The notes beneath the pieces are model-generated. The model saw only the letters and a program-made list of their open reading frames with translations. It was not told where the DNA came from and searched no databases. Of a DNA stretch of 64,000 nt, positions 833-20,343 are shown in pieces. The DNA is from Portulaca oleracea (lineage: Eukaryota > Streptophyta > Magnoliopsida > Caryophyllales > Portulacaceae). The translations under genes were made by a program, and so were the position numbers. The stretch spans positions 24,161,594 to 24,225,593 of the forward strand of contig CM055881.1 of assembly GCA_029582165.1 (NCBI GenBank), given 5' to 3'. Position 1 is the stretch's first letter. Each line of letters starts with the position of its first letter.

Positions 833-834
833 AA

Positions 835-852: not shown

Positions 853-2448
853 CTTATTAGTGGGTAAGACTTGAAAAGTCGGGTTTTGTTTTTAAAAAAA
901 TAAATAAATAAAGGTTGTCACATTTTTTTTTATTTTAGGCATATTGCATTTACGGGCCTTCCCCTTTGTTGGGCACACAAGGCACCGTTTAGGTAAAAAC
1001 CCTTTTATTATTACCATTTTTTGGGAAAACATTGAACCATTCAACTCAGGTGGGTCCATTTAGACCTTCACCGAGCCGGTGGTTGTTTTTCCCACTCGTG
1101 CACCACTCCCTAATCCATATGATAAAAGGGAGCAACCCAAGTGTGTTAATCTTGCCATGCAACCCATGGAAGATCAAATACCCGGGACACGAGCTAGAAG
1201 CTAGGGAACTGACCCTTTAACCCTCTAAACATAGGACCTTGGTTAAGTTTGAATTCATTTGTGTGTTATGTGCTCTTTGTAACCCTTGAACCCAGGACCA
1301 TGCCGTAATGCTTAGACAAAAAAAAAAAAGAGTGAAAAAAAAAGTCAAGTATGGTCGTCCCTGTTTGCCTGCAGGCTGAGATAATTACTTTGGTCTATAC
1401 AAGTTCTGACCCTGTAGATCCACGCGGATCCCGTGATCGGTCAGGCTTGTATAGCCCAAATTAATGGTCATGGCTAATGGTCGTCAGTCTCTGTTTAGGC
1501 TTTGTAGTGCTTTTGAGCCCAGAATCCGCGCGGATTTTGGTGTGCTCGGGTACTACCGGGCCTAAGTCAAGATGTTTTCTAGGGTTATGTGTTGGGTTGT
1601 GGTGACTGACTTGGCCCATACGGAGTTTAGGCTCCTGAAAACCGCGCGGATCTCAGGCAGGGTCGAACCCGTATGGTCCAAGCCAGTTCTCCCGCTTTCT
1701 TTTTTTTTTCGTCGTCGTGTCTTTAGGATTTGGCCCATACATAACTCGAGCCCAGGAGATCCACGCGGATCTCAGGTTGGGCTGGGTTATGTATGGTCCA
1801 AATTCTCGTTTTTCTCCTTCACCTCTTTTTGTTCGACCTGGATTTAGGCTTAGTAGCAGGCCTGAGCCCAGGAAATCCGCGCAGATCTCAGTACGCCTGA
1901 GCCTGTGAAATCCGCGCGGATCCCATGAGCTCGGTTGCTACTGGACCTAAATTTAGGTGTCCTTAGGGTCATTAGTTTGCATTTTTGTGTGTGTGAAGTT
2001 TTTTTTTTTTTTATCTTGTGTCGGCAGGTCATTTGGGTGGCACAAGGCTGCTGGGCCTCATGGATCCTCGCGGATTTTGTGAGCGAGCCCGATAAGGTCT
2101 AAATATGTCGTTCCAGGCCAAAGTCTGCATTTTGCATAAGAGCTTTATTTGGGCTTCGCATATGATTTTGAGCTTTAGTTCGATCATTCGGGTCCAAATA
2201 GAATTCTTCATCCATTGCATGCATGAAGTTTTAGAACGACGTTGAGCTGAGTCTTCGAATTCATCCACCTTTCAGGGGCAGGATAGGTTGGTTTCGGGTT
2301 TATCGGTAGGCGAGGCAGGTCGGTTGGAAACTTTTGGCGTCCACTCTGACGATGCGAAGATCGGGTATCATCGAGGCAACTAATTCGGGAGCAACCGGCG
2401 AAGAAGCATCGAGGAAGGTGTTGAGTCTTTAATTGACCCATCGAGATA
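853..2448 (+). repeat. Non-coding leader of Tat copy 1 with hairpin array
   Basis: There is no credible ORF for 1.6 kb between PBS and gag. From 1389 to 1952 the leader is a series of five imperfect inverted repeats, about 110 bases apart: 1389-1460, 1493-1565, 1610-1682, 1730-1802 and 1842-1952. A copy of the ATCCRCGCGGAT motif sits at or near the centre of each. The fourth is clearest: arms 1730-1762 and 1767-1802 pair almost throughout and leave only ACGC of the motif as loop. Another motif copy is at 2063. Compared with copy 2, about 115 bases are missing near 2090, between short GCCCG repeats. Confidence 0.8.
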
Positions 2449-3960
2449 ATGTTGGATCCCAATGATGATCATCACGAAGATCATCCGCCTAGTGACCATG
2501 GAGAGGAGCCGGTGCCTCCTCCACCACCTCCACGTAACGACATGGAGCAATTGACCAACATAATTCTGAATATGCAAGTCTCTATGAATGCTCAATTAGA
2601 GGCACAAAACCAAAGAATCGACGCTGTCATTCACGCCATGGAGGAGGTGAAAAATTCAAATGTGAAGAATCCCCCTACGCGAAGTAGAGCGATGCGGAAG
2701 AGAAGGATGGATCAGTCCACGGGGTTTCGAACTCGAGACTTGATCGCATTGAGCAAATGTTGAAAGAGTCTACACTCTTTAACAATCAATTCATGGATGA
2801 TGTAAGTTTCACGCCCGTCCCCCGGGGTAGACTTCCCCCCAAATTCAACATGCCTGATATCAAATTTCATGGTGTCGAGAACCCACATCAACATATGCGG
2901 AATTTTCGGGGCTATGACGAAAGGAGTTGAAGAGGACATTTATCACATCATCTTTCCTTGGACTTTAGGTCAGGCGTCATGAAATGGTATAAATGCGCTC
3001 AGTCCGCCAAGACTTCACAATGGAGCTCACTTTGCAAGGAGTTCCTACATCAATACTCCTCTGATGTCGACATGCTGTCACCTTAAGGGACATGGAACTA
3101 ATGAAGCAAGGAAAGGGAATCTTTCTCAGTTACTTGCTCGATGGAGATCAAAGCGGCTCAAATGGTAGATCGACCCTCGGAGGAACACCAAGTTGATATG
3201 CTTATTCGAAGCCTGCAACCCTCATACAACACTCATATGAGATTTCAACCTCTCAAAGACTTTGGCACACTGAGATTGGCCGACACAAAGATTGAGAGTG
3301 AGTTCGCTAAAGGGGTTATTGAAATTTGGAAGAACACCTACACTAATAAAAAGTCACCGGCCCATCCGATGGCTAATAAAGGAACGAGGTGAATGCTTTA
3401 CAACGCTACAGAGTATACCCCGATAGACACTTCATATGCTCAGCCTTGGGCGCTATTAAGCGAGGAATGATTACCCTTCCCGACTTAAAACTGAGCGAAA
3501 GAGAAGCCACGTGGTTGGGATCTTTGGTAAATTTTGCAAGTATCACGAGCGCGAGGACATGATCTTGAGCATGTTTCACCTTAAAGAATAGAATGGAGGA
3601 GATGTTTAGGTCGGCGGCGCTTTTACCGGCCAGCGAAGCAACACCGAAACCCATTAGGTTCCTTACACATACATGCTATTTCTGAGGAGTGTGCATGGGA
3701 TCCTTCTGATTTCATTACTGATGCAACGAGACCGACGTACATTATGCGCTACTTTTCCGAGGACAATGAGGTTAATGGTCTATGGGTTAGCGATGAGGAA
3801 GATGTCTATGGCGAACCTCATGCTCAGAACGTCACCAACAACTTTTGGGACTCGACCGGTGGCAGCGACTTTTGAGGGAATGAAAATCCGGGAAACCAAA
3901 ACCCGGATGTCACTTTCCTCACAAGATTAGGGCCATAATCATCAGAGGTCCTTCCCAAGT
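2449..3960 (+). pseudogene. gag of Tat copy 1, broken by many small indels
   Basis: Gag forms the retrotransposon capsid. The translation matches the intact-frame gag of copy 2 (17412-18814) in pieces. The N-terminus contains the acidic and Pro-rich segment (PPPPPP) and the coiled ILNMQVSMNAQLEAQNQ region, followed by the capsid-type segment around 2760-3400 and the zinc-knuckle region near 3530-3600. Frame is lost many times by one- and two-base changes between about 2340 and 3660, while protease and RT downstream stay open. No functional product is expected from this copy unless the indels are sequencing errors. Confidence 0.85.
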
Positions 3961-4000
3961 CCAACCTCAAGACAAAGGGAAGGAAAAAGTAGGGGAGACA

Positions 4001-5440
4001 GTGGTCCCTACCCCTGAAGAGGATCTTGTGTTAAAGCAGTTGAAGAAATTGAAGATGGATGTTACGGTCTGGCAGTTATTGGCAGCTTCACAAAAGCATA
4101 GACAGGCTTTAATCGAGGCTTTAAGTAAACTTGAAGTGTCGCCTGAAACCACACCCGAGGAAGTAGTATCTCTTGTCACTTCAGGCCAAAGTGCTATAAC
4201 CTTTAGTGATGAGGATTTGCCCAAAGAAGGCTTTGCACACAACAAGGCCTTATACTTATCTGTGGGTTGTTCTAATAAGGTGATACCATTGGTATTGGTT
4301 GACAACGGATCTGCTGTAAATATTTGCCCATGGAGGACAGCCCAAAAGCTGGGTATTCAACCTCATCAGCTTACTCAACAGGCTATCCAACTTAGGGCTT
4401 ATGATAATACTCCTAGGCGAATTTTGGGATCAATCCTCTTGCCAGTCACTATGGATACCATTTCTAGCAATGTTGAGTTCTTGGTACTAGACATTCCGAC
4501 TTCCTTTAATCTCTTACTAGGGCGCCCTTGGTTGCATGAACAACGAGCGGTGTCGTCTACTTTGCATCAGAAAGTAAAGCTATCGGTCAAGGGTCAAGTG
4601 GTGACCATCAAGGGAGAGGAGTTATCCGCGATGATTACTTCTAAGAAGCCGATGTTGGAAGTAGAACATAACTCTAAAGATGAGGAGTTCCATCATTTTG
4701 ACATTGTTGCTGCCTTGAATGAGGACGAAGCACCTTTGGACTTCGATCCTTACTCGAATAGGAAGGTCAACGCTATACTCAAAAGACAAGGTTACTTTCC
4801 TGGTTTACCTTTAGGAAGGAAAGCACAAGGGCCCACATCCTTTCCCTTGACTCAAAAAGGAAACCATCGTTTTGGATTGGGGTACACTCCAACGGAGGAG
4901 GAACAACGATTAGCCAAGAAGGTCGCGAGGGTCAAGAAAAGTGAACCAATACCGCTTTATAGTGTGAAGCCGTATCCACTCACGCTTAACGGTCAGTTTG
5001 TGAAAGAAGGAGATTATTTCCCCTACTTCGGCTTTCCAGAGCCATACTACTTGAAAAGCAAGGGGATTTTGGTTCCAGGATTGGAGATTTTCAGTGACTG
5101 CATGCTGCTCGAGGAAGAACCTTGCACGCCAGCACGGGAGAACAAGACCCCACTAGATTGGACTCATCTAGCCAGGAGTAACATCTTTGGGATGTTGTTT
5201 GGTCAAGAGGCCCGAAAAGAAGAGAAACCTGTGGAGGCACTTTCTCTAGCCCTATCAAGCAAGGATTTTGATCCTACTAAGCTCATCACAACATGGGGCC
5301 AGGAGAACAAGCAAATCACCTGGATATCGGCTGATGGAGATAAGGAGTTCACTCTAGCTATAGGAGAGTGCATTCGTGGATGCAGGTCTAGTCATCATTC
5401 ATTCATGTTCCATTTTCGAGTCTGTCTTGAGTGGCCTTAA
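4001..5440 (+). CDS. Tat retrotransposon protease region (gag-pro C-terminal part)
   Basis: The 479-residue open frame carries a retropepsin-like aspartic protease. The active-site segment is VLVDNGSAVNICPW near residues 98-111, with DNG in place of the usual DTG/DSG, as is common in Tat elements. The flap and C-terminal part (LGRPWLHEQRAVSSTLHQK) follow near residues 174-192. The protease would cut the polyprotein in virus-like particles. The frame begins without a clear ATG, so it is probably the downstream part of a gag-pro polyprotein whose N-terminal part is frameshifted. It overlaps the RT frame by 65 bases in a different frame, so a frameshift or an intron near 5376-5440 is needed to join them. 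Confidence 0.85.
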   Translation: MVPTPEEDLVLKQLKKLKMDVTVWQLLAASQKHRQALIEALSKLEVSPETTPEEVVSLVTSGQSAITFSDEDLPKEGFAHNKALYLSVGCSNKVIPLVLVDNGSAVNICPWRTAQKLGIQPHQLTQQAIQLRAYDNTPRRILGSILLPVTMDTISSNVEFLVLDIPTSFNLLLGRPWLHEQRAVSSTLHQKVKLSVKGQVVTIKGEELSAMITSKKPMLEVEHNSKDEEFHHFDIVAALNEDEAPLDFDPYSNRKVNAILKRQGYFPGLPLGRKAQGPTSFPLTQKGNHRFGLGYTPTEEEQRLAKKVARVKKSEPIPLYSVKPYPLTLNGQFVKEGDYFPYFGFPEPYYLKSKGILVPGLEIFSDCMLLEEEPCTPARENKTPLDWTHLARSNIFGMLFGQEARKEEKPVEALSLALSSKDFDPTKLITTWGQENKQITWISADGDKEFTLAIGECIRGCRSSHHSFMFHFRVCLEWP

Positions 5441-7004
5441 GCCCACTAAGTCTGTGCATCCATACGGAGGGTCTGTTGGGTCATCTGTGGATGTTCTTGT
5501 TTCTCAATTCAATGAAATGAACTTTTTCGCTTACGACTCTTCTCATCCCCCGTCCCTGAACTGCTTTGCCTCAAAAGAAAATAATGATGATGCTGTAAAC
5601 GAATCTGAAATCCCTAAAGATCTTTTAAAAATTTGTAGAGGACGAGAATCGAATTTCATGATTGAAGAAACCATAATCGTAAATCTGGGTACCCTGGAAG
5701 AACCTAAATTGACCAAAATCGGGAAATCTTTAACCCTCGAGGAGCAAGAGCAATTTACTCTACTTCTACGAGAATTTGTAGATGTCTTTGCCTGGTCATA
5801 CCAAGACATGCCCGGTATAGACAGAGAGATAGCTGAGCATAGAATACCGCTTTACCCTGATGCTAAACCGGTAAAACAGAAGCTTCGTCGCATGAAACCA
5901 GAATGGACATTGAAAATCAAGGAGGAAGTTGAGAAGCAGTTAAGTGCAGGCTTCATTAGGGTGTCGGAATACCCACAATGGGTAGCGAATGTGGTCCCAG
6001 TCCCGAAGAAGGATGGGAGAGTGCGGATGTGTGTGGACTTTAGAGATCTGAACAAGGCAAGCCCGAAGGATGACTTCCCTTTACCTCACATTGATATTTT
6101 GGTAAATAACACTTGTGGTCATGCTCTTCTTTCCTTCATGGATGGATACTCGGGTTATAATCAAGTCAAGATGTCCGAGGAAGATATGGAGAAGACAACG
6201 TTCATCACTCATTGGGGTACATTCTGTTATGTAGTGATGCCATTTGGGTTAAAGAATGCAGGGGCAACCTATCAAAGGACTGCCACCACATTGTTGCATG
6301 ATATGATGCATAGGGAAGCAGAAGTTTACGTGGACGATATGATTATTAAATCCGTCGATCGCGAAACACATTTAGATAGCCTTAGAAAGTTTTTCCTTAG
6401 GCTCCGTAAGTACGGAATGAGATTAAACCCACAGAAATGTGCCTTCGGGGTGACATCGGGTAAGATGTTAGGCTTTGTAGTAAGTTCTAGGGGTATCAAG
6501 GTCGATCCCGCAAAAATCAAGGCGATACAGGAAATGCCACCGCCTAAAACAGAAAAGGAGATAAGAGGTTTCCTAGGCCGACTACAGTACATAAGCCGGT
6601 TCATAGCAAAGTTAACCATGATCTGTGACCCCATATTTAGGAAGCTGAAGAGAGGAATCAAGCCTGAATGGGATGAAAAATGCCAAGCAGCCTTTGACAG
6701 GATCAAAGAATACTTGGCCAATCCACCCGTTTTAATGCCTCCCACGCCTGGAAGACCCTTACTGTTGTATCTAACTATTACAGAGGCAGCAATGGGGGCT
6801 ATGTTAGCTCAAAGATACGAAGGTGAAGAACGAGCAATCTACTATTTAAGTAAGAAGTTCTTGGAATATGAGACTCGGTACTCCAATATTGAGAGGTTGT
6901 TCCTAGCTCTTGTTTGGGCAACAAGGAAACTACGTCACTACATGCTTGCTCATACAGTGCATGTGACTGCTTTCATGAACCCTCTCAAATACTTGATGGA
7001 GTAG
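5376..7004 (+). CDS. Tat retrotransposon reverse transcriptase and first RNase H
   Basis: The 542-residue frame contains a complete Ty3/gypsy reverse transcriptase. It shows the VPKKDGRVRMCVDFRDLN block, the FMDGYSGYNQV block (first catalytic Asp), the MPFGLKNAGATYQR block and the catalytic YVDD at residues 318-321. It continues into a gypsy-type RNase H with SKKFLEYETRYSNIERLFLA and HVTAFMNPLKY. The stop TAG at 7002-7004 lies where related proteins have a Lys in a K-P-L-type segment. The next frame continues in phase, so this looks like a single point nonsense change. RT copies the element RNA to DNA in the particle. Confidence 0.93.
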   Translation: MDAGLVIIHSCSIFESVLSGLKPTKSVHPYGGSVGSSVDVLVSQFNEMNFFAYDSSHPPSLNCFASKENNDDAVNESEIPKDLLKICRGRESNFMIEETIIVNLGTLEEPKLTKIGKSLTLEEQEQFTLLLREFVDVFAWSYQDMPGIDREIAEHRIPLYPDAKPVKQKLRRMKPEWTLKIKEEVEKQLSAGFIRVSEYPQWVANVVPVPKKDGRVRMCVDFRDLNKASPKDDFPLPHIDILVNNTCGHALLSFMDGYSGYNQVKMSEEDMEKTTFITHWGTFCYVVMPFGLKNAGATYQRTATTLLHDMMHREAEVYVDDMIIKSVDRETHLDSLRKFFLRLRKYGMRLNPQKCAFGVTSGKMLGFVVSSRGIKVDPAKIKAIQEMPPPKTEKEIRGFLGRLQYISRFIAKLTMICDPIFRKLKRGIKPEWDEKCQAAFDRIKEYLANPPVLMPPTPGRPLLLYLTITEAAMGAMLAQRYEGEERAIYYLSKKFLEYETRYSNIERLFLALVWATRKLRHYMLAHTVHVTAFMNPLKYLME

Positions 7005-7007
7005 CCA

Positions 7008-7799
7008 TTGGTCAATAGCAGGGTAGCTCGATGGATGGTCATGTTGTCGGAATTCGATTTACAGTTTGTTCCACAAAAAGCCATAAAAGGAAGAGTGGTG
7101 GCGGATTTTCTGGCTGAACTACCCGTAGAGGAAGCTCGTGAAGAAGAACTCGAATTTCCCGATGAAGAAGTATTTCAAACGCAGAAAGAAACTTGGGAAA
7201 TGTATTTTGATGGCGCCTCTAATCAAAGTGGATATGGAGTAGGAATCATTCTGATCTCACCCGAAGGAGCACATACTCCGATTTCGGTGAAATTGGATTT
7301 TGAAGCCACCAACAATGTGGCTGAATATGAAGCATGCATCATTGGTATGCAAGCTGCGGTAGAGATGGGCATAAAGTGCATAAGAGTATTTGGGGATTCA
7401 AGCCTCATAATCAATCAAGCTTCCAACAAGTGGAAGGTAAAGAATGAACCTTTAGCACCTTACCAAGCTTATGTAAGAGATTTAGCAGAACACTTTGATC
7501 AAATAGTGTTCACTTATTTACCTCGGGAGCATAATGAATTAGCGGACGCTTTGGCTAAGCTGTCATCCTTGCTTAATATCCCGAGAGGAGCAGTTTCTAT
7601 GCCTATATGTGTAGATCGAAGAGCTCAGCCGGCTTATGTGTACTCTTTGGAGGTGTGTGAGGTAGACCCAACTTGTTGGTATTACGATATATACCAGTAC
7701 CTCACCAAAGGAACGTACCCTGAAGGTTCCACTAAGAGGTCACAAAGAGCAATTAGACTCTTGGCTTCACAGTATTGCTTGATTGAGTCAATTGTCTAA
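7008..7799 (+). CDS. Second, archaeal-type RNase H domain (Tat lineage marker)
   Basis: This frame is in phase with the RT frame and separated from it by one stop codon. It starts with the end of the first RNase H (VNSRVARWMVMLSEFDLQFV, VADFLAEL). It then holds a second RNase H of the archaeal/plant type: MYFDGASNQSGYGVGI (first Asp), NNVAEYEACIIGM (Glu), VFGDSSLIINQ (Asp) and HNELADALAKL (last His/Asp region). Doubling of RNase H between RT and integrase is an established hallmark of the Tat clade. The frame ends near 7799 with a frameshift before the integrase zinc domain. Confidence 0.9.
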   Translation: MVNSRVARWMVMLSEFDLQFVPQKAIKGRVVADFLAELPVEEAREEELEFPDEEVFQTQKETWEMYFDGASNQSGYGVGIILISPEGAHTPISVKLDFEATNNVAEYEACIIGMQAAVEMGIKCIRVFGDSSLIINQASNKWKVKNEPLAPYQAYVRDLAEHFDQIVFTYLPREHNELADALAKLSSLLNIPRGAVSMPICVDRRAQPAYVYSLEVCEVDPTCWYYDIYQYLTKGTYPEGSTKRSQRAIRLLASQYCLIESIV

Positions 7800-8917
7800 G
7801 AAAACTGACATGGGCATCAATTTGCTTTGTCTAAGCCAGGAGGAAGCTAAGAATTTGATGGAAGAAGTTCATGGAGGAGAATGTGGTCCACATATGAATG
7901 GACAGATGTTGTCCAAAAAAGTACAAAGAATGGAGTATTACTGGTCGACTATGGAAGTGGTATCGCGATTACGTGAAGAAGTGCTACAAGTGTCAAATTT
8001 ATGCGAACTTGCAACACCAACCCCCTTCATTCTTGACTACTTTAACCTCGCCTTGGCCTTTTTCAGTATGGGGCATCGATATCATAGGGAAGATCACTCC
8101 TAAAGGAACAGGAGGACATGAGTATGTGCTTGTAGCCATTGACTACTTCACAAAGTGGGTAGAAGCGGCATCATATGCAAAGTTGACTTCTAAGCACGTT
8201 GCTAAATTCATACTTACAAATATTATATGCCGTTACGGGGTACCTCATGAGTTGATTAGTGATAATGGGGTTCACTTCAAGAGAGAGACAGCTGAGTTGT
8301 TAGCTAAATATAAGATCCAACATCATAGATCTTCGGTTTATAGACCTCAAACCAACGGAGCGGTTGAGGCAGCTAACAAGAATGTCATTAAGATAATAGA
8401 GAAAATGGCCACAACTTATAAGGACTGGCCAGACAAGTTGCCCTTCGCATTGTGGGGTTATCAGACTTCTATTCGTACATCCACCGGAGCAACACCTTAC
8501 TCTTTGGTATACGGAATAGAAGCAGTCTTGCCAGTAGAGGTGGCAGTTCCTTCACTGCGAATTATAGCAGAAAGTCAGATTCCAGAAGCGGATTGGGCTA
8601 AAGCCAGGTATGAAGAATTGGTTAACGTGGATGAGAGGAGACTCAGAGTCATGCACAATGTCCAGGTATATCAGAACCGCATATCTAGGGCATTCAATAG
8701 AAAGGTTAGGCCGAAGAACCTTGGAGAGGGTGATATGGTGATGAAAGAGGTAAGGGCACCTATTCAGGACCCGAGAGGGAAGTTTAGGCCCAATTGGATG
8801 GGCCCGTTCATTATAAAAGAGATCCTTCCAGGAGGAGCTGTGAAGTTGATGGATTTGGAGGGTGAAGAGTATGCTCAGCTAACCAACTTGGATCAACTGA
8901 AGAGGTTTTATGCTTAA
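7783..8917 (+). pseudogene. Tat integrase, frameshifted near its N-terminus
   Basis: The zinc-binding part is read first in one frame from 7783 (VHGGECGPHMNGQMLSKK) and then, from about 7955 onward, in the frame of 7898-8917 (YVKKCYKCQIY). At least one frameshift therefore divides the His-His and Cys-Cys halves. The second frame (339 residues) holds the complete catalytic core: Asp61 in WGIDIIGK, Asp122 in LISDNGVHF and Glu157 in QTNGAVEAANK. Asp122 and Glu157 are 35 residues apart, one fewer intervening residue than usual for gypsy integrases. A C-terminal segment with a GPF motif (PNWMGPFIIKEIL) and a TAA stop at 8915-8917 follow. The product would insert element DNA into the host genome. 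Confidence 0.9.
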
Positions 8918-10074
8918 GGGTAAAAGTGGACATAGAAACTGGTGACCGAAACCAGCAACTATCCTCAAAACATTAGCCACTGATCTGTTTAAGTCAGCAA
9001 CTAAATACTTACACTACCATTTGAACTACGATGGCCTGATTCCATGTAATGTGGATACGTAGGAAGCTTCTCTAAAAGTCCGGCCCAAACAAATAAAAGA
9101 TTTTCCTGATACCCTATTTTCGGCCCTTAAAGCAACATGGACTCCTCGCGGATTCAATGAAACTTAAAACCTTTGTAGGGCTCGAGATTTCAAAAAAAAA
9201 AAGACCTTACCTAGGCCTCCGCAGGTCCACGCGGATTTTCCGAGGCCTAAGTCCGGAGTTCGTTCAAGCCTAATTCAGTCTGTGGGTCCAACAAATCCAC
9301 GCGGATCTGGGACAATTTTGCCACCCAACTGGGTCCGTGCGGATTTTTGGGTACATGATCCCGTTTGATTTTGAGTCTTAAAACCCCCATAGATCTTAGC
9401 GGATTTTGCAAGGCCCGAATCAGGGTTCGTATGAACTACCGTCAGCCCAGTCCTCCATGCGGGACCATTCACCCAAGCCTGTGGATCCACGCGGATTTTA
9501 CTCATCCTTGGTCCAAAATACTCACCTTATGATTCTGGAGCTATTTTGGGTCGGATCCGCGCGGATCCTTTGTTTTCTAGACCCATTATTTTAATGAGGT
9601 CCTCGCGGATTTGGTTACTGACCTGGCCCAGAATACTCATTTTTGGAGCAACTCTGGGTAGATCCGCGCAAATCCTCAACTTTTCTGGGCCCATTTGTTT
9701 TTTAATAAAATCCATGCGGATCTACTTAACGACCCAGATACTCACCAGATATTTTCCGGAGCAGTCTTGGTTGGATCCACGCGGATTTCATATTTTCCTG
9801 GGCCCATTTTTATTACTTCGATTCTCGTGGGTTACTTTCTTGATGCAAAAATCTTCGTAAATTTTCAGTGTACAGAAGTCCACGCGGATTTCACACATGT
9901 AATTGAAAATTCTGAAATCCCGTAAAATGCAATTTATTATTTCAAGCAAACCTAAAGCCTAAAGATCAAAAACGAAAAGAGAGCATGCAAACTAATAACT
10001 TGCAACTACAACGTTCATCAGCATCAAAAAAAAATACTAAAAAAAAAAAGCTAAAGGCAAGGCAGCATCAGTAT
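8918..10074 (+). repeat. 3' spacer of Tat copy 1 with CGCGGAT motif copies and about 115 bp tandem units
   Basis: No sense-strand gene is seen. From 9130 on, the motif CCACGCGGATTT and variants recur about every 50-100 bases. From about 9511 to 9860 the sequence is organised as three diverged tandem units of about 115 bases. Each contains an AGATACTCA/AGAATACTCA segment, a TCCGCGCGGATCC-type motif and a CTGGGCCCATTTT segment, with a second motif copy in the first two units. Confidence 0.75.
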
Positions 10075-11541
10075 CTAATCCTGCTTGAGTTTCTTTCCAG
10101 ACTCTAGAATAGTGTTTGACCCAGATCCTTCACTTTGTGTAGACGCTCTTCGTTGTCTTTTCTTGGCAGCATAGTCACTGGGGGCTTTCTCTTTGCCTTT
10201 CCCAGTAGTTTTAGGGGTCGTTTGAGTCACTGATGGATTCAATTCTTTTTCTTCATCTTCCTTTAACTGCTCCCTAGTAGCGGAATCTTTTTCAAGTATC
10301 CAATGGCGATAAGCCGTAGATACATAGGTACTTCCACCGGTTGTAGGAACAGTGAGAGTTGGCCTGCTCATTCAATAGTCTTGCCAAGATCTAACCTTTG
10401 TGGCATCGTTTGTGATGACTTTAGGGCTAAGAGGAATGCAGTCAAGCGTGGGGATCCTTTGTTTTCTTCTTATCTGACGCCTGGCCCGCTCGGGGAAGTA
10501 ATAAGTGGTATGTGTTAGACCCACAAGCCTCACAAAAGGACATCTGTGGTCCACGGTTACCACTTCTCTTATTCTCCACCAGGTGATATGCCACTTAACG
10601 ATCATCTCCTCAATGAACCACTTCAACCACTTGTCCGTAGAGCGCTCCTTGTACTTACGGGCACGTTGGCAAAACTGGGTCATCCGGAATGTGGGTTCGT
10701 TCTTCAGAGGAGCCAAGAAGCGAGTGTGCTCCATCAACCATATCTGTAAGGAAAGAAAGGAGAAAGTTAGAGTTAACAAAGTGGGTCCACGCGGATTCCC
10801 GGGGAGGAAGATCCACGCGGATTTGTAGGTGGCAATTTGGGTGATAGGAGTAAAATCCGCGCCAATTTCGAGAGAGAGTTACCTGAAGAAGCAGGGGGCT
10901 TCCTGAGAATTCGCCCTTGGGTTCTTCACAAAGTCGATCCAAGCACAAGATGGTCTCAGCTACTATCATGGGTGCTAGATTTTGATCATCACGGAGGCTC
11001 TCGCTGATATTAATTAGCGAAGCCGGACCGCTATTTGTACCACCATGGTAGAAACAAAATCCTCCCAACAAACACAGAACTAAAGCCCTAGTTCTTCTCT
11101 CAACGTTGTCACTTCTTTTGAGTAAAGAAATTAAAGGCAGAAAGTTTACCCTTTCACCTTCTAAAATTCTTTCTAGGTTGTCTTTCTCTAGGCCAAGAAG
11201 GGAGGTATACCTAGGGGCGGTATTCCTAGAAGAAGTCGGGATTACGGGTGTTGAAGTGAATTTGAAACCTAGTATTGCACCGAATTCTTCAGGGAGAGGG
11301 CACAGTTCTTTTTCCCCAAACCTAAATAGGTGAAGCTCAGAGTCCCGAGTGTGGCCCTCAAGAAATCCCACATAATCCTCACTTGCCTTAGGCTAATTAG
11401 GGTATGAAGATTGTATCTCTTCAATTCTTCTTTTCCAGCATACGGAAGGGAGAGCATCCATCGTTCTAGTTCTTTCTCGAACGACATATTTTCGGTAGTA
11501 AATTGGGTATCACGCGGATTTTGGAAAATTGGCCAAGCCAA
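10075..11541 (-). pseudogene. Antisense plant-mobile-domain-like gene inside the Tat element (spliced, mutated)
   Basis: Read on the minus strand, this is a gene with one intron at 10882-10744. The donor is CAG|GTAACT and the acceptor ACAG|ATATGG, phase 0 on both sides. Exon 1 encodes segments typical of plant mobile domain (PMD) proteins: RFGEKELCPLPEEFGAILGF and LVLCLLGGFCFYHGG, ending SPLLLQ. Exon 2 continues IWLMEHTRFLAPLKN and ends in a basic tail with AAKKRQRR, a possible nuclear localisation signal. A frameshift near 11355 and an in-frame TGA at 10374-10372 break this copy. Extra ORFs in antisense downstream of integrase, some PMD-like, are known from Tat elements. Their function is unknown. 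The intron itself contains copies of the element's motif. Confidence 0.75.
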
Positions 11542-13560
11542 AAGACAGGTGTAGGGGAAATTTGTGATGATATAGGAGGTAGATCTACGCGGATTTTATA
11601 GGGCGGAAGTCCACATGCAGTGTTATGGTTGTAGCAAAAGTCCATCCGGAATACCAATCCATATAAAAATCAAAGACTCGGTTGGCAATTCAAGTGGGAT
11701 AAGTTTCGGATCGCAGTGGAAGTCATACAGATTTAGGATCCTCGCGGATTTGTTGGCAAATTAGCCCACGCGGATTTTGGGCCCAGTACTATGATCCACG
11801 TGGATTTTCCAGCTTTTGGGCCAAGCACAGGTCCACGCAGATTTGTGAGCAAGTGGGTTCATGCGGATTTGGGCTCACGGACCATACAAAGACTAGGCTT
11901 TTTTTTTGGATTTTGCAAACTTTGGGCCAAACTCGGGATCACGCGGATCTGGGTCCACGCGGATCTGGGTCGGATCTGGGTCCGTGCAGATTCAGGACTG
12001 CATGGATTTTGGACGGGAAAAAGTCGCGCGAATCCTTGGGCCGTCATTTGAGCCTACATAGATTTGGGCCGGCCACGAGTCCACACAGATTTTGGCTGAA
12101 CAAAGGTTCACGCGGATTTGCTACTACTTGGGATCACGCGGATTTAGGTCGGAGTTAAGTTTAGGATGATCCTCGTGGATTGGTCGAGTTTTAGACCCGA
12201 CTTACTTATTTGCAAGAGAACTTGTTAATTTTGGTGTAATCAAGATTTATTCGCTTCTGACGATATTTATAGAAATCGACTCCTGTTTTGACCACAGCTC
12301 AACGTCCTGTCTTAATTATTTCGTTTTGCATCGCATGTAGTCCTAGTTTTTTTTTAATAAAAAAAAGAGAACATTCATACATTAGCATTTGCATCAATGT
12401 TTGCGTCTAGGATAGCTCATAAGTAATAAATGAAACGATAATTGTCTAAGCATTATACATGGGTGCCCTTCAATCATCCTCTTCATCCGAGACGAGGTCT
12501 ATATACTCAGGGCCCGAGAAGCCAAAGCGGCCGGTAGAAGCGGATTTAACTACCCGAGCAGGTTTATCAAGCCCCACGGATTTGATTAAGCGAGCAAAGC
12601 GCGAGCAGCGGAGGTCCACGCGGATTTGGGCCAAGTAAATTTTGTTTGGCCCGGCCCAGTGGAGCTCCACACGGATCCAGCAGCAAAACAGAGTGGGATG
12701 TCCAAAACTTAATCTTAATGGATTTAAGTTCAAGACGACAGCGTGTGCATGGGTTGGGTCGGATCCACGCGGATTTGTCACCCAACGCACATTAAATTTC
12801 TCAAACATAATTTTATGGCATGCCCAAACAAAAAGCTCGACACATTTTCAGCTCAAAAACCAGTTTTTTCGGGCATGGCATCACGTGGGTTTCCACAACA
12901 AACATGCTCAACTGCCACTGAAATCCACGCGGATTTCAGCTACAAAACAGAGCAAACATGCTCAATTGCCACTGAAATCCACGCGGATTTCAGCAACAAA
13001 ACAGAGCAAACATTCTCAACTGCAACTGGAATCCACGCGGATTTCAGCAACAAAAAAAAAAATTTTAAAAAAAATAATAAAAAAAAAAAATAAAATTTTT
13101 TCGACTGCAACTGGAATCCACGCGGATTTCAGCCAAAAAAAAAAAAAAAAATTCGACTGCAACTGGAATCCACGCGGATTTCAGCAACAAAACAAGGGCA
13201 AAAAACGACTCAACTGAAATTCACGCGGATTCAAGCCACAAAAATACAGCAAAAATGTTTCAAAGTACTTGAAATTTTGAAGCTCAAAATTGGACCGAAG
13301 TGTACTCGCCTGCTAGATTTGCAGTTCAAGTTGGAAGTTGAATTGATACATTTACCTGTTAAGTTACGGCTGGGAATCACGCGGATTTTGGCAAAAATCC
13401 AGCTCAAATTCAACCCGGTTCAAGCTTAGTTTACCAAGAAACCGGTTCAAGCTCAAATCCAGCTCTAATCCAGCTCTGATTCAGCTCTAATCCAGCTCTA
13501 ATCCTCGCGGATTTGGGTTCAACAATAGCTCAAAACAGTCCCTGAACATAAATGGAAGGG
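11542..13560 (+). repeat. 3' non-coding region of Tat copy 1, dense near-palindromic motif array
   Basis: No gene is recognised. The region carries about 20 copies of the CACGCGGATTT motif plus decayed variants (ACGTGGAT, ACGCAGAT). At 12905-13240 it becomes a tandem array with about 50-80 base spacing. There each unit contains TGAAATCCACGCGGATTTCA, whose nine-base arms are perfectly complementary around ACGC. A-rich slippage tracts separate some units. The plus-strand ORFs here are by-products of the repeats. The region also holds the upstream flank of the antisense gene. Confidence 0.8.
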
Positions 13561-13700
13561 GAGTATCCTTATCCTACTTTCATCTTATTTTTATCATATT
13601 TTTCATTTTATTTTATTTTATTTTATTTCATCTTTTCTTTTTTTTTTCTTTTCTATTTTTTATACTTACAAAATTTGTCCTTTTCAGAAGAAAATGTATC

Positions 13701-13930
13701 AAGCCTGGACGATATCCAGCAACCATGCTAGCAGCGGACTAACTCCGGATAATTTTTCAAGCTACCCTTGAAAGTCGAAGCCTGGACAACATCCAGCAAT
13801 TACACCAACATCGAACTACCTCCGGTCGGATCCAACCTACCCTTGGATAACTCAGCCTGGACAATATCCAGCAATCAAAGTTAACAATTGGACTACCTCC
13901 AGTTAACTACAACGTTCTTTTCAAGATATA
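13701..13930 (+). repeat. Three diverged tandem units of about 76 bp before the polypurine tract
   Basis: The segment AGCCTGGACRAYATCCAGCA starts at about 13702, 13778 and 13854, a period of 76-77 bases. Each unit also repeats a GGACTAMCTCCGGT-like and a CTACCCTTGGA-like part. The stretch 13561-13700 before it is a pyrimidine-rich tract with nothing recognisable. Confidence 0.75.
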
Positions 13931-13962
13931 TACTTTGACTTTCGTCTTACTCAGACTCAGTC

Positions 13963-13973
13963 AAAGTGGGGGG
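13963..13973 (+). other. Polypurine tract of Tat copy 1
   Basis: AAAGTGGGGGG lies five bases before the LTR start TGTAGACACC. Position and composition fit the plus-strand primer of a gypsy element. Confidence 0.8.
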
Positions 13974-13978
13974 CTAAC

Positions 13979-15692
13979 TGTAGACACCAAAGTAATGTTC
14001 TAGACCAGGAAAATACATGGCATCTGTCAATACAGTCCAGTTAAAATCCTGGCGGATTTGCTCAGACAGACCCAAGAAAATTCTTGTGGATTAACCCAGG
14101 AAAAACCACGCGGATTTTCCAGGCCGGCCTAACACAAATTCTCGCGGATTTACCCAGTACCACGCGGATCCGGGCCAAAATTCAGCCTGGAGTCTCGCGG
14201 ATCCCGGCCAAAGTTCAGCTCAAAATTCAATGGGAGTCACGCGGATTTGGGCCAAATTTTCATCAGATCGTCCTGGCTCAAGTCCACGCGGATTTGGGCC
14301 AAATTTCATCAGATCAGCTTGGTTCAAGTCCACGCGGATTTGGGCCTAATTTCCATCGGATCGACAATAAATCCACGCGGATCTAGATCTGGGTCGGCAC
14401 AGAAGACCTCGCGGATTTGGGTCTGGGTCAGCCTGGAGAGTTACGCGGATCCCAGTTTTGGCCCAGAAAAAAGCGGATCCACGCGGATCCCAGTTTTGGC
14501 CCAGAAAAATGCAAAATCCGCGCGGATCCCAGTTTCCCGGCCAAGGACAGATCCACGCGGATCTCATTCTCCAGCCTAGAAGAAATCCGGGCCAATCAAA
14601 TTTCTCAACCCAGCAGAAACTCTCGCGGATCCCAGTTCTGGCCCGGAAAATCGATCCTGGCGGATCCCACTTATCCACCCGAAAAAAATCTCGCGGATCA
14701 AATTATTCAACCCGCATTAAATTCACGCGGATTTGCCAGACTTTGTCAATCCGCTTAACCAAAGGCCACGCGGATTTTTGATGGCGATACCACTACTTGG
14801 AATCCGCGCGGATTTCCAGCGAAGTGAGTGGCAACTGCCGTGATCTGATCCCGACCTCTATCTATAAAAGGATCCGCGCGGATCCTGCCAAAAAAAAAAA
14901 GGAAAGAGGAGGCAGGAAGGAGAAAGTGTGGAGAGAATTCTGAAAAAAAGAGAGCTAATTACTGGATCCACGCGGATTTCTCCGCTACACCTCTGCAACT
15001 CTGAGCCATTTTGGGTGAAACTTTTTTGGGTATTTTTGAGGAATTGCGCGGATTTGCGAAGGATTGGTAGGGCGCCTTCATTTTTCATACTTGTGTTTTT
15101 CGTATTTGGGAATTGCGCGGATTTGTGTTTTTTTTTTGTTTTGTTCAGTTTTCGTATTTGGTAGATCAGATTGTAAAATGTAGATTAATCACCCCGCCCG
15201 TTGTAATTTATTTTTTTTTTTTTGAATTTGTTCAAACTTCATTCAAAGTTCTATGCATGTTTTTGTTTATTCCGAGTGACAACCTTTATACTTTTTTTTC
15301 CTTTCTTTATAAACCCGACCTAGTAAAGGCCGCTGTGGCGGACGATGCAAGGGCACCCCCCTACATCGATACCTTTACCCCCGGATCCGAACTTTGGTTT
15401 GAGACCGGAGTCATTTTTTGTTGTTTTTTTTTGTTAATTTTTTATTAAAAATTAACTGGCGACTCCTTTTATTTTTTTTTATGCGAATTAACGTTTTTCA
15501 GGCTCAAAACATCGCTCGAAATCGCATGGATTTACGGTCGATGGCACGGAATCTTGTCGAGAAATCGCGTGGATTTCAGTCGATGATTCGATTCGATAAA
15601 AAAAAAACCGTTAAAATTTGTACCCTAAGCAACCCTACGTCGACTCGACATTCCGTGGGGGACCGTGCCCTCCGGGGGCCGCGGGCCCTACA
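13979..15692 (+). repeat. LTR-B, complete Tat LTR (1714 bp)
   Basis: It starts TGTAGACACC after the polypurine tract and ends CCCTACA before the PBS. It serves as 3' LTR of copy 1 and 5' LTR of copy 2. The U3 part (14040-14880) is packed with about 22 copies of the CGCGGAT motif every 20-60 bases, many linked to GGGCCAAA or CCCAGTTTTGGCC segments. A TATA box lies at 14862-14869. The R/U5 part carries motif copies at 14966, 15045 and 15113, and two reverse-oriented ones near 15515-15575. Confidence 0.92.
14861..14870 (+). promoter_or_regulatory. TATA box of LTR-B
   Basis: TCTATAAAAG is followed at once by the fully palindromic motif copy ATCCGCGCGGAT. The same arrangement is found in LTR-C at 19510-19519. 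Transcription would start some 30 bases downstream, near the A-rich segment at 14890. Confidence 0.7.
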
Positions 15693-15693
15693 G

Positions 15694-15711
15694 TGGCGAC
15701 TCCACTGGGGA
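15694..15711 (+). other. Primer binding site, Tat copy 2
   Basis: TGGCGACTCCACTGGGGA follows one base after the LTR end, in the typical position for reverse-transcription priming. It is the intact form of the site at 835-852. Confidence 0.8.
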
Positions 15712-17411
15712 CTTATTAGTGGGTAAGACTTGAAAAGTCGGGTTTTGTTTTTTAAAAAAAAATAAATAAAGGTTGTCACATTTTTTTTTTATTTTAGGCA
15801 TATTGCATTTACGGGTCTTCCCCTTTGTTGGGCACACAAGGCACCGTTTAGGTAAAAACCCTTTTATTATTACCATTTTTTGGGAAAACATTGAACCATT
15901 CAACTCAGGTGGGTCCATTTAGACCTTTACCGAACCGGTGGTTGTTTTTCCCACTCGTGCACCACTCCCTAATCCATATGATAAAAGGGAGCAACCCAAG
16001 TGTGTTAATCTTGCCATGCACCCCATGGAAGATCAAATACCCGGGACACGAGCTAGAAGCTAGGGAACTGACCCTTTAACCCTCTAAACATAGGACCTTG
16101 GTTAAGTTTGAATTCATTTGTGTGCTATGTGCTCTTTGTAACCCTTGAACCCAGGACCATGTCGTAATGCTTAGACAAAAAAAAAAAGAGTCAAAAAAAA
16201 AAGTCAAGTATGGTCGTCCCTGTTTGCCTGCAGGCTGAGATAATTACTTTGGTCTATACAAGTTCTGACCCTGTAGATCCACGCGGATCCCGTGATCGGT
16301 CAGGCTTGTATAGCCCAAATTAATGGTCATGGCTAATGGTCGTCAGTCTCTGTTTAGGCTTTGTAGTGCTTTTGAGCCCAGAATCCGCGCGGATTTTGGT
16401 GTGCTCGGGTACTACCGGGCCTAAGTCAAGATGTTTTCTAGGGTTATGTGTTGGGTTGTGGTGACTGACTTGGCCCATACGGAGTTTAGGCTCCTGAAAT
16501 CCGCGCGGATCTCAGGCAGGGTCGAACCCGTATGGTCCAAGCCAGTTCTCCCGCTTTCTTTTTTTTTCGTCGTCTTGTCTTTAGGATTTGGCCCATACAT
16601 AACTCGAGCCCAGGAGATCCACGCGGATCTCAGGTTGGGCTGGGTTATGTATGGTCCAAATTCTCGTTTTTCTCCTTCACCTCTTTTTGTTCGACCTGGA
16701 TTTAGGCTTAGTAGCAGGCCTAAGCCCAGGAAATCCGCGCAGATCTCAGTACGCCTGAGCCTGTGAAATCCGCGCGGATCCCATGAGCTCGGTTGCTACT
16801 GGACCTAAATTTAGGTGTCCTTAGGGTCATTAGTTTGCATTTTTGTGTGTGTGAAGTTTTTTTTTATCTTGTGTCGGCAGGTCATTTGGGTGGCACAAGG
16901 CTGCTGGGCCTCATGGATCCTCGCGGATTTTGTGAGCGAGCCCGTCCATGTGTGGTCCAAATGGGCTCCTCGGTCTGTTTAGTCGGCTAGAAACGGTATG
17001 TTTAGCCCTTATGTGAGGCCTGAGTTCGTTTTCAAGCTCGGCCCGATAAGGTCTAAATATGCCGTTCCAGGCCAAAGTCTGCATTTTGCATAAGAGCTTT
17101 ATTTGGGCTTCGCATATGATTTTGAGCTTTTGTTCGATCATTCGGGGTCCAAATAGAATTCTTCATCCATTGCATGCATGAAGTTTTAGAACGACGTTGA
17201 GCTGAGTCTTCGAGTTCATCCACCTTTCAGGGGCAGGATAGGTTGGTTTCGGGTTTATCAACGGGGCGAGACGGGTCGGTTGGAAACTTTTGACGTCCAC
17301 TACGACAGTAACGAAGATCGGGTATCATCTGAGGCAACTAATTCAGGAGCAACTGACGAAGAAGCATCTGAGGAAGGTGTTGAGTCTTTGGTAATTGACC
17401 CATCTGAGATA
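15712..17411 (+). repeat. Non-coding leader of Tat copy 2 with hairpin array
   Basis: This is nearly identical to 853-2448. The five motif-centred inverted repeats recur at about 16248-16812. The segment of about 115 bases lost from copy 1 is present here (about 16945-17060). No credible gene is seen. The open frame continues upstream of 17412 without an ATG as far as 17280. Confidence 0.8.
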
Positions 17412-18814
17412 ATGTCGGATCCCAATGATGATCATCCTGAAGATCATCCGCCTAGTGACCATGGAGAGGAGTCGGTGCCTCCTCCACCACCTCCACGTAA
17501 CGATATGGAGCAATTGACCAACATAATTCTGAATATGCAAGTCTCTGTGAATGCTCAATTAGAGGCACAAAACCAAAGAATCGACGCTGTCATTCATGCC
17601 ATGGAGGAGGTGAAATATTCGAATATGAAGAATCCCCCTACGAGCGAAGTAGAACAGTCTGGAAGAGAGAAGGATGGATCAGTCCACGGGGTTTCAAACT
17701 CGAGACTTGATCGCATTGAGCAAATGTTGAAAGAGTCTACACTCTTTAACAATCAATTCATGGATGATGTAAGTTTCACGCCTGTCCCCCAGAGTAGACT
17801 TCCCCCCAAATTCAACATGCCTGATATCAAATTTCATGGTGTCGAGAACCCACATCAACATGTACGGAATTTTCTGGGGACTATGACACTGAAAGGAGTT
17901 GAAGAGGACATTTATCACATCATCTTTCCTTGGACTTTAGGTCCAGACGTCATGAAATGGTATAGTACGCTCAGTCCCGCCAAGACTTCACAATGGAGCT
18001 CACTTTGCAAGGAGTTCCTACATCAATACTCCTACAATGTCGACATGCCTGTCACCTTAAGGGACATGGAGCTAATGAAGCAAGGAGAAAGGAAATCTTT
18101 CTCAGATTACTTCGCTCGATGGAGATCAAAGGCAGCTCAAATGGTAGATCGACCCTCGGAGGAACACCAAGTTGATATGCTTATTCGAAGCCTGCAACCC
18201 TCATACAACACTCATCTGAGATTTCAACCTCTCAAAGACTTTGGCACACTGAGATTGGGAGTGAGTTCGCTAAAGGGTTACAATCAAATTTGGAAGAACA
18301 CCTACACTAATAAAAAGTCAGCTGGCCCATCCGCAGTGGCTAATAAAGGGAACGAGGTGAATGCTTTACAACGCTACACCGAGTATACCCCGATAGACAC
18401 TTCATATGCTCAGGCCTTGGAGCGCCTATTAAGCAAGGGAATGATTACCCTTCCCGACTTAAAACCTGAGCCGAAAGAGAAGCCACGTGGTTGGGATGCT
18501 GGTAAATTTTGCAAGTATCACAGGGCGCGAGGACATGATACTGAACAGTGTTTCACCTTAAAGAATAGAATGGAGGAGATGTTTAGGTCGAAGCGACTGC
18601 CTTTACCGAAGGCAGCACAGAAGCCGAGCAACACTGGAAACCCATTAGGTTCCTTACACATACATGCTATTTCTGAGGAGTGTGCATGGGATCCTTCTAA
18701 TTTCATTACTGATGCAACGAGACCGACGTACATTATGCGCTACTTTTCCGAGGACAATGAGGTTAATGGTTTATGGGTTAGCGATGAGGAAGATGTCTAT
18801 GGCGAACCTCATGC
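17412..18814 (+). CDS. gag of Tat copy 2, C-terminally truncated by a deletion
   Basis: The first ATG in the open frame is at 17412 (MSDPNDDHPEDH). The frame encodes a Pro-rich and acidic N-terminus, a coiled segment (ILNMQVSVNAQLEAQNQ), a capsid core (GVENPHQHVRNFLGTMTLKG, DVMKWYSTLSP, GERKSFSDYFARWRSKA) and a zinc-knuckle-like CKYHRARGHDTEQCFTLK. At 18814/18815 gag is fused to the U3 of LTR-C. The frame remains open to 19223, adding about 136 LTR-encoded residues rich in Arg, Ser and Gly from the repeated motif. The rest of pol is absent. Capsid assembly in trans is conceivable but unproven. Confidence 0.85.
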
Positions 18815-20343
18815 CGGGCCAAAATTCAGCCTGGAGTCTCGCGGATCCCGGCCAAAGTTCAGCTCAAAATTCAATGGGAGTCACGCGGATTTGGGCCAAA
18901 TTTTCATCAGATCGGCCTGGCTCAAGTCCACGCGGATTTGGGCCAAATTTCATCAGATCAGCTTGGTTCAAGTCCACGCGGATTTGGGCCTAATTTCTAT
19001 CGGATCGACAATAAATCCACGCGGATCTAGATCTGGGTCGGCACAGAAGACCTCGCGGATTTGGGTCTGGGTCAGCCTGGAGAGTTACGCGGACCCCAGT
19101 TTTGGCCCAGAAAAAAGCGGATTCACGTGGATCCCAGTTTTGGCCCAGAAAAATGCAAAATCCGCGCGGATCCCAGTTTCCCGGCCAAGGACAGATCCAC
19201 GCGGATCTCATTCTCCAGCCTAGAAGAAATCCGGGCCAATCAAATTTCTCAACCCAGCAGAAACTCTCGCGGATCCCAGTTCTGGCCCGGAAAATCGATC
19301 CCAGCGGATCCCACTTATCCACCCGAAAAAAATCTCGCGGATCAAATTATTCAACCCGCATTAAATTCACGCGGATTTGCCAGACTTTGTCAATCCGCTT
19401 AACCAAAGGCCACGCGGATTTTTCGGTAACTGACAGCCCCACTACTTGGAATCCGCGCGGATTTCCAGCGAAGTGAGTGGCAACTGCCGTGATCTGATCC
19501 CGACCTCTATCTATAAAAGGATCCGCGCGGATCCTGCCAAAAAAAAAAAGGAAAGAGGAGGCAGGAAGGAGAAAGTGTGGAGAGAATTCTGAAAAAAAGA
19601 GAGCTAATTACTGGATCCACGCGGATTTCTCCGCTACACCTCTGCAACTCTGAGCCATTTTGGGTGAAACTTTTTTGGGTATTTTTGAGGAATTGCGCGG
19701 ATTTGCGAAGGATTGGTAGGGCGCCTTCATTTTTCATACTTGTGTTTTTCGTATTTGAGAATTGCGCGGATTTGTGTTTTTTTTTGTTTTGTTCAGTTTT
19801 CGTATTTGGTAGATCAGATTGTAAAATGTAGATTAATCACCCCGCCCGCTGTAATTTATTTTTTTTTTGAATTTGTTCAAACTTCATTCAAAGTTCTATG
19901 CATGTTTTTGTTTATTCCGAGTGACAACCTTTATACTTTTTTTTCCTTTCTTTATAAACCCGACCTAGTAAAGGCCGCTGTGGCGGACGATGCAAGGGCA
20001 CCCCCCTACATCGATACCTTTACCCCCGGATCCGAACTTTGGTTTGAGACCGGAGTCATTTTTTGTTGTTTTTTTTTGTTAATTTTTTATTAAAAATTAA
20101 CTGGCGACTCCTTTTATTTTTTTTTATGCGAATTAACGTTTTTCAGGCTCAAAACACTGTTCTGAAATCCGCATGGATTTACGGTGGTTCGAATCTTGCC
20201 CGTAAATCCGCGTGGATTTACAGTCGATCAAGGCTCAAATCGATTACGATAAAAAAAACCGTTAAAATTTGTACCCTAAGCAACCCTACGTCGAATCGAC
20301 ATTCCGTGGGGGACCGTGCCCTCCGGGGGCCGCGGGCCTTACA
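18815..20343 (+). repeat. LTR-C, Tat LTR lacking its first about 190 bases
   Basis: It starts at the equivalent of LTR-B position 14171, directly after gag, and runs to CCTTACA at 20343. There is a TATA box at 19510-19519. It differs from LTR-B by scattered substitutions, a short replaced segment near 19423-19440, and the U5 motif block (about 20150-20250). Flanking DNA after 20343 begins AGTTC. Confidence 0.9.

Follow-up and report, generated by a model that had tools for sequence, protein, structure and literature searches.

A palindromic word in the non-coding DNA of Tat retrotransposons of Portulaca oleracea as a candidate recognition site for their antisense PMD protein

The closest described counterpart of the system reported here is the pairing of VANC proteins with VANDAL transposons in Arabidopsis, where the motifs given for VANC21 (YAGTATTAY) and VANC6 (AGTTGTCC and AGTTGTAC) are short, stand densely and in one orientation in mainly non-coding DNA including introns, differ by single bases between subfamilies and have copies in tandem repeats (PMC5735166, PMC10398659; here and below, statements on published work refer to the available parts of the papers cited). 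We found most of these traits in a Tat-type long terminal repeat (LTR) retrotransposon of Portulaca oleracea, which occupies the first 20,343 bases of a 64,000-nucleotide stretch of contig CM055881.1 (assembly GCA_029582165.1, forward-strand positions 24,161,594 to 24,225,593; hereafter the window, G000:C14:24161594-24225593 in our list of loci). Its non-coding DNA is filled with an oriented palindromic word, an antisense gene in its 3' part encodes a plant mobile domain (PMD) protein, and upstream of that gene the variable base of the word follows the clade of the protein. The differences from the VANC-VANDAL pair are that the element is an LTR retrotransposon and not a VANDAL (Mutator-like) DNA transposon, that the protein proposed to read the motif is encoded antisense and belongs to the PMD family, that the word is a 16-bp palindrome with a CGCG core and a link to the TATA box, with most copies outside recognisable tandem arrays, and that binding by PMD is here predicted from sequence, with demethylation a further conjecture.

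Extra open reading frames (ORFs) are familiar from related retrotransposons. PMD is found in 57% of Ogre and Transposase_28 in 23% of Retand elements (PMC6317226; PMC11963269), the Transposase_28 of Retand antisense ORFs is predicted to bind DNA (PMC11963269), further antisense ORFs have been described (PMC7264820), and a general suggestion is that the methylation of LTR elements may be influenced by factors which they themselves encode (PMC12844716). The element studied here resembles Ogre and Retand in having an extra ORF (which in Retand runs antisense and is located between pol and the 3' LTR), a long 3' region and tandem repeats, and differs in that its extra ORF encodes PMD and is interrupted by a motif-bearing intron. 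The available parts of PMC6317226 and PMC11963269 do not describe any array of a family-specific motif linked to an extra ORF. Judged from titles and abstract beginnings, none of the papers listed for the motif letters concerns plant transposons, and the listings on related LTR-element systems contained no report of such a code. The antisense product is also akin to the host PMD proteins MAIN, MAIL1, MAIL2 and MAIL3, being a member of the same family (PF10536); the host proteins differ in that they support silencing. A promoter motif, DOWN, is common to MAIN- and MAIL1-dependent genes (PMC7156037), and the DOWN motif given for MORC1, CATGCAGTTT (PMC9899485), is unlike the word found here.

The word is a 16-bp imperfect palindrome, which in elements with a clade 1 PMD protein (clades are described below) has the form RRATCC-N-CGCGGATYY, with flanks that carry 0.0-0.3 bits per position in a sequence logo. 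The left arm is looser in clade 2, where it often reads RRRTTGG. The logo was built from 204 clade 1 and 76 clade 2 sites chosen by an exact CGCGGAT, a choice that fixes those seven positions. An earlier reading of the window from its letters alone (the sequence-only reading) had pointed to a near-palindromic word, and this description was sound in kind, though the 16-mer is the better form. The same reading had put the hexamer GCGGAT at about 90 copies in the non-coding parts and about three in gag-pol. Our count for the window is 101, of which 95 lie no further along than position 20343; there are indeed three in gag-pol, at 6023, 7101 and 8588 rather than at 6025, 7108 and 8590. The reverse hexamer, ATCCGC, occurs 27 times in the window, twice in gag-pol (2483 and 4624). 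Most copies share one orientation, as had been noticed, with 46 matches to CACGCGGAT in the window and one to its reverse complement.

A mismatch-tolerant count against shuffled sequence, which the sequence-only reading had proposed as a check, gave a clear result. With up to two mismatches allowed, the core ATCCRCGCGGAT has 83 sites in the LTRs, leader, spacers and antisense gene, which together make up 12,300 bp (repeated LTR and leader copies included), one in 6,618 bp of gag-pol, none in the 1,534-bp second gag and one in 43,550 bp of downstream DNA, while 50 dinucleotide shuffles of each region gave means of 0.02 to 0.6 sites. The near absence of the word from the gag-pol genes is borne out by these numbers. 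Because the insertion is a composite with three LTRs, some of the sites counted are duplicates of others. The main arrays outside the LTRs are as follows.

1417..2077, plus strand: motif sites of the leader, repeated at 16275-16930 in the second leader
9141..9891, plus strand: motif array, recognised by motif counts, in the spacer between the integrase and the antisense gene
11511..13514, plus strand: motif array in the spacer that separates the 5' end of the antisense gene from the 3' LTR, containing tandem arrays at 12899-13055 and 13102-13255

Between the last two arrays lies the antisense gene, which has two exons and is damaged in the window copy.

10883..11487, minus strand: exon 1 of the antisense PMD gene, frameshifted in the window copy, with 0 motif cores
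10744..10882, minus strand: intron (GT...AG) with three motif cores (10790, 10816 and 10855)
10078..10743, minus strand: exon 2 of the antisense PMD gene, with one internal stop codon in the window copy and 0 motif cores

In the copy at another locus, L016, the gene is open throughout, and its two exons, separated by a 142-bp GT-AG intron, give a spliced product of 426 amino acids that matches positions 5-345 of the 347 in the PF10536 profile (E=1.5e-14; 54.4 bits, cut-off 34.9). By this profile match the antisense gene product is a PMD protein; it has a relative in a Saponaria PMD protein, with 36% identity over 71%. PMD and DUF7745 were the only Pfam families above their cut-offs. Across the genome, a survey for PMD yielded 5,314 candidates at first look, 117 scored candidates and at least 119 matches; Transposase_28 (PF04195), the usual domain of Retand antisense ORFs, gave 13 matches (59 candidates) against these thousands of PMD candidates. 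The genes fall into clades, of which clades 2 and 3 have support of 1.000 and 0.999 in an exon-1 tree, and between clades the protein is under strong purifying selection. The ratio of nonsynonymous to synonymous change (dN/dS) is 0.03-0.08 in 40 of 40 comparisons of clade 1 with clade 2 (dN about 0.1, dS 1.4-3.1) and about 0.03-0.06 in six comparisons with exon 1 of clade 3.

The relation between word and protein was examined at loci of known clade. Eight loci adjoining PMD genes were taken from the PMD match list blind to the motif; CACGCGGAT predominates next to clade 1 genes and GCGCGGAT is almost the sole form next to clade 2 genes. Two further loci, from a third PMD class (clade 3), have only TCGCGGAT, in 17 of 17 sites (8 upstream of the gene, 9 in introns). 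The full covariation table comprises 11 loci, all from one genome: five of clade 1 (the window included), four of clade 2 and two of clade 3, the last being two of five places, about 1.0 kb each, that were named by gene class before the T-rich locus L033 was tallied. L033 was itself picked by motif and is linked to a nearby clade 3 gene by proximity; it stands outside the table. At forward non-palindromic sites, base N is A in 73, T in 24, G in 5 and C in 1 case in clade 1, G in 39 and A in 1 in clade 2, and T in 17 in clade 3 (there with introns included), with perfect palindromes (9 in clade 1 and 9 in clade 2) set apart. Only one of the 6,930 possible assignments of clade labels, the true one, is this tight, and the same result is obtained with upstream DNA alone (where clade 3 has T in 8) or with both strands. 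Adding deaminated cores changes the tallies to A 89, T 32, G 6 and C 2 in clade 1, G 51, A 3 and C 1 in clade 2, and T 21 in clade 3. In the DNA upstream of the gene, the identity of base N goes with the clade of the PMD protein: clade 1 has A with some T, clade 2 has G and clade 3 has T; this code breaks in the introns of clade 2. Deamination of CpG as the sole source of the variants was rejected by argument, as it could give A from G and not T. At L018, where the PMD gene is degraded, 7 forward and 6 reverse sites read CCGCGGAT, which may represent a fourth type of base.

Because the upstream variable base follows the clade of this protein, we propose that the motif arrays are predicted binding sites through which the element's own antisense PMD protein recognises the DNA of its own family, a reading whose chances we put just short of even.

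The distribution of the word across the 1.13-Gb genome bears on how specific such recognition might be. A search for the exact 15-mer AATCCRCGCGGATTT gave 1,573 forward and 1,549 reverse matches, palindromic sites being counted on both strands, while the same pattern read backwards gave 0 in either direction. The survey of other genomic copies that the sequence-only reading had called for found that all 30 motif loci fetched match this Tat superfamily, as the same family or as sister families; they hold 95 of the first 100 listed places, the remaining five lying outside the fetched loci, and one of the 30, L033, was assigned to the superfamily only via other loci. With a single site in the 43,550 bp downstream and no match to the reversed pattern in the genome, the idea of a family-specific signal has held up. 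In 30,394 bp of aligned gag-pol DNA from grouped family copies, CGCGGATT is absent and GCGGATTT occurs 3 times. Copies in which neither pol nor PMD was detected (L019-L022 and L026) retain 17-31 cores per locus. A carrier of a PMD gene, L040 (C1:21695500-21703499), has 0 copies of GCGGAT; by eye, its PMD gene adjoins ORFs that resemble a Mutator-like transposase and an OTU protease. L027, a locus that includes a Tat LTR, has 12 copies of AAGGACAT, all oriented alike.

These data also speak to the alternative that the element has hijacked a host factor reading CGCG, such as a CAMTA-like factor with its CGCG box, and that base N drifts by clade without consequence. Both ACGCGG and GCGCGG would be compatible with the CAMTA consensus, the sites crowd the U3 promoter region and the TATA box, and the mixture of A and G in clade 2 introns is what free drift allows. 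However, the conserved word is 16 bp long, with outer arms ATCC/GGAT for which such a box has no need, N is near fixation in the upstream DNA of clade 2 and clade 3 genes, exact 15-mers are confined to this superfamily in the 30 loci examined, and dense arrays far from promoters would not be expected. We therefore regard a host factor of this kind as unlikely.

One copy of the word has a fixed place in the promoter.

14863..14885, plus strand: TATA box followed at a fixed offset by the palindrome GGATCCGCGCGGATCC; the same in LTR3 from 19512

A TATA-linked palindrome that matches ATCCGCGCGGAT in at least 11 of 12 bases is found in 20 of the 31 LTRs with U3, and starts 9 bases after the start of the TATA box (10 in L027 and L039). 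Sixteen of the 20 match in all 12 bases and four (L015, L016, L021 and L039) have one change, while the U3 sequence around the site differs among LTRs. The palindrome is absent from all five LTRs of the L026-type group; in the sister family of L026, L030 and L032, the TATA box is followed by a sequence resembling GATGTTYRAGATC, perhaps marking another specificity.

A protein bound to the palindrome directly past the TATA box, which stands at a constant distance in 20 of 31 LTRs, could hinder initiation, and together with the sites upstream of and within the PMD gene this lends some weight to a different role for the same binding. On this account, the PMD protein would act as an autorepressor or control copy number, blocking the promoter after the TATA box and limiting its own expression. 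Yet the dozens of sites across leader and spacers exceed what a repressor would need, and the non-coding arrays resemble VANC targets (PMC5735166), so that we consider autorepression a rather unlikely, if credible, use of the sites.

Whether the word could simply have multiplied without any function was judged from its spacing and conservation. Tandem Repeats Finder places 15 of the 66 cores in 8918-17279 (a palindromic site counting as two cores) in tandem arrays, with units of 16, 38, 46, 52 and 54 bp that hold one motif each. The earlier dismissal of tandem expansion is only partly right, since most sites lie outside arrays but these 15 lie within them. Spacing showed no clear helical periodicity; at a period of 10.5 bp, the resultant length over 58 spacings was 0.24. 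Retention of CpG was set aside as evidence since it does not separate the motif from its context, the observed/expected ratio of CpG outside the motif being 1.04 for the LTR, as against 0.65-0.81 for leader and spacers and 0.52 for the downstream DNA.

The introns of the antisense gene are more telling. In 15 gene copies (13 with both exons and two with exon 1 and intron only, the degraded genes of L010 and L018 being left out), there are 0 motif cores in 17,994 bp of exons and 43 in 2,529 bp of introns, a palindrome again counting as two. When three intron sites are aligned between clades 1 and 2, the site columns are 82% identical and the other columns 55%, an excess equalled in one of 10,000 random block placements. 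Site columns that rise above their surroundings in this way are a footprint of selection on the sites themselves. A neutral history, in which tandem duplication and gene conversion spread a functionless word and coding selection alone clears it from exons, could draw on the cores in tandem arrays, on the family-specific tandem repeats that Retand elements commonly have in their 3' region (PMC11963269) and on near-identical copies that show no extra conservation of the motif. It sits poorly with site flanks that carry almost no common information, with three intron sites standing above their surroundings despite near-saturated synonymous change, and with a TATA-linked site at a fixed offset across differing U3 regions. 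Pure tandem expansion is ruled out by the near-zero flank information and the intron footprint, and we give neutral spread in general little credence.

An oriented palindrome could also be a signal in RNA, acting in replication, dimerisation or packaging by Gag as a hairpin or otherwise. The bias of 46 to 1 for CACGCGGAT is in keeping with this, as is the fact that all six arm pairs can form in 60 of 112 clade 1 sites and 11 of 17 clade 3 sites. In clade 2, however, the innermost stem pair fails in 51% of 49 sites with the other arm unchanged, and only 11 of the 49 can form six pairs; no compensatory change in both arms was seen among the sites tallied for pairing. A hairpin was rejected on account of these clade 2 sites that break the stem, and a signal in the genomic RNA alone does not explain the conserved sites in the intron of the antisense gene, so that an RNA-level or replication signal appears very improbable.

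Recognition of the sites by the element's own PMD protein has to be weighed against a number of observations that count the other way. The code is not strict, as 24 of the 103 non-palindromic forward sites in clade 1 are of the T type, and the introns of five clade 2 genes (L049-L052 and L013) have A in 4, G in 2 and C in 1 site, with 3 palindromes, despite G-type arrays upstream (the introns of eight clade 1 genes have A in 17 and G in 4, both orientations taken together). The covariation sample consists of three clades within which loci are related, and base and protein clade could co-vary by descent alone while another factor reads the site. Among the host relatives, MAIN and MAIL1 are required for silencing, and DNA contact of their own is not established in the available parts of PMC7156037 and PMC9899485. 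Within clades, dN/dS is higher than between them (0.12-0.86 in clade 1 and 0.16-0.39 in clade 2), as expected if many copies are dead.

The conservation of the sites is similarly uneven. Alignments of at least 150 columns with more than 90% identity show motif columns no better conserved than their flanks, and two CpG-containing positions do worse, at 0.87-0.88 compared with an overall 0.94. Motif columns exceed flanks only when identity is below 80%, a range in which shared words are favoured by the local alignment itself; here most motif columns lie at 0.83-0.97, base N at 0.68 and one more column at 0.74, with flanks mostly at 0.6-0.8. Few orthologous sites outside the intron can be aligned; among 58 such site pairs (flank identity at least 0.6, alignments of at least 100 columns), the exact core is kept in both copies in 28, lost in the non-clade-1 copy in 22 and lost in the clade-1 copy in 8, and the 28 pairs that keep it have base N as A/G in 11, G/G in 10, T/G in 3 and other combinations in 4. 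The TATA-linked palindrome is present in both clade 1 and clade 2 elements (the sample does not reach clade 3 promoters) and is mostly of the G form in both, with ATCCGCGTGGAT in L015 and L016; one clade-specific readout thus does not cover all sites. No intact palindrome was found in 11 of the 31 LTRs, L010 and L018 having degraded forms and L048, L012, L036, L037 and the LTRs of L026 (two), L030, L032 and L038 having none. These 31 LTRs are not independent, some pairs coming from one element, and were scanned for the best TATA-like word within 900 bp.

If the PMD protein does read the word, it would probably bind as a dimer, because the site is palindromic, with GCGGATYY as a strict half-site and the second half-site read more loosely. 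Bound at the LTR promoter, at the upstream region and intron of its own gene and in the spacers, it would mark the members of its family in trans, and the copies in which neither pol nor PMD was detected (L019-L022, L026) may benefit in the same way and hence keep their sites. It is less certain that bound PMD would counter host silencing or activate the promoter, as VANC does for VANDAL elements. A changed specificity would separate sister families, and, as a guess prompted by the CpG-rich core, binding may depend on methylation.

The sequence-only reading had raised self-recognition of the VANC kind as a possibility. The dense, family-specific motif in non-coding DNA and its single orientation are present here, and upstream of the gene (11 loci, three clades) the motif subtype follows subfamily and protein; purifying selection between clades and the conserved intron sites speak for the idea as well, and the introns of clade 2, where the code breaks, speak against it. 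In its wider form, the proposal would be a retrotransposon version of VANC, in which PMD proteins serve self-recognition in a sequence-specific way, their preference for A, G or T at a single position changing in step with the dozens of sites in each element and providing a family address and an escape from silencing, and of which the host MAIN and MAIL proteins are domesticated forms. We offer this wider form only tentatively, as something rather more doubtful than not.

The word sits in an insertion whose structure is itself composite. A single Ogre-type Tat insertion with three LTRs, a full internal region and a partial second internal region accounts for the window up to 20343. Its first LTR starts 918 bp to the left of the window (G000:C14:24160676) and its last ends at 20343, so that it is longer than the sequence-only reading had it. 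A 5-bp target duplication, AGTTC, stands before LTR1 (seen in L009) and after LTR3, a single duplication for the whole composite. The LTRs have the termini TGTAGACACC...CTACA / CTTACA and TGTAGA...CTACA; a candidate polypurine tract, GTGGGGGG, lies shortly 5' of LTR2, and a candidate primer-binding site, TGGCGACTCCACTGGGGAC, lies 3' of it. The coding order is gag, a weak protease match, reverse transcriptase with RNase H, an additional RNase H and integrase.

1..20343, plus strand: three-LTR Ogre-type Tat insertion (LTR ends, repeats, AGTTC duplication)
4001..5440, plus strand: ORF that matches a protease weakly (PF13650 at E=0.032, short of the cut-off)
5376..7004, plus strand: reverse transcriptase and RNase H (PF00078, PF17919, PF17917)
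7008..7799, plus strand: additional RNase H between RNase H and integrase (PF13456, PF00075)
7898..8917, plus strand: integrase (PF00665)
13978..15692, plus strand: LTR2, complete, its U3 with the densest motif array (LTR ends, motif counts)
18814..20343, plus strand: LTR3, 5'-truncated at the junction with the partial second internal region (repeats, LTR ends)

An additional RNase H between RNase H and integrase is a signature of Tat elements (PMC6317226), and here PF13456/PF00075 sits between PF17917 and PF00665, which makes the element a member of Tat (Ty3/gypsy). Assignment to the Ogre subclade is suggested by the PMD gene, given the presence of PMD in 57% of Ogre elements (PMC6317226). 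The first ~190 bp are missing from LTR3, which is joined to gag, so that an ORF at 17280-19223 reads from gag into LTR sequence. Further along the window, at 55004-57292, two Ty3/gypsy reverse transcriptase fragments stand back to back, one on the minus strand up to 55905 and the other on the plus strand from 55946, with 32-42% identity to the Tat reverse transcriptase. At L015, positions 1135-2664 hold a 23-nt palindrome, GCGACCGTTAAATTAACGGTCGC, and variants in two clusters and both orientations. It was considered as the code of another Tat family and rejected, as the clusters are about 0.7 kb apart and outside the Tat part; presumably they are subterminal repeats of a DNA transposon.

In the available literature, the antisense extra genes of Tat elements are described as being without an assigned function. 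The coupling of motif and protein described here leads to three PMD proteins with three predicted base preferences. If the proposal is true, sequence-specific self-recognition against silencing would have arisen in retrotransposons as well as in Mutator-like DNA transposons, and would have done so with a different protein domain, one that plants also took into their own gene control.

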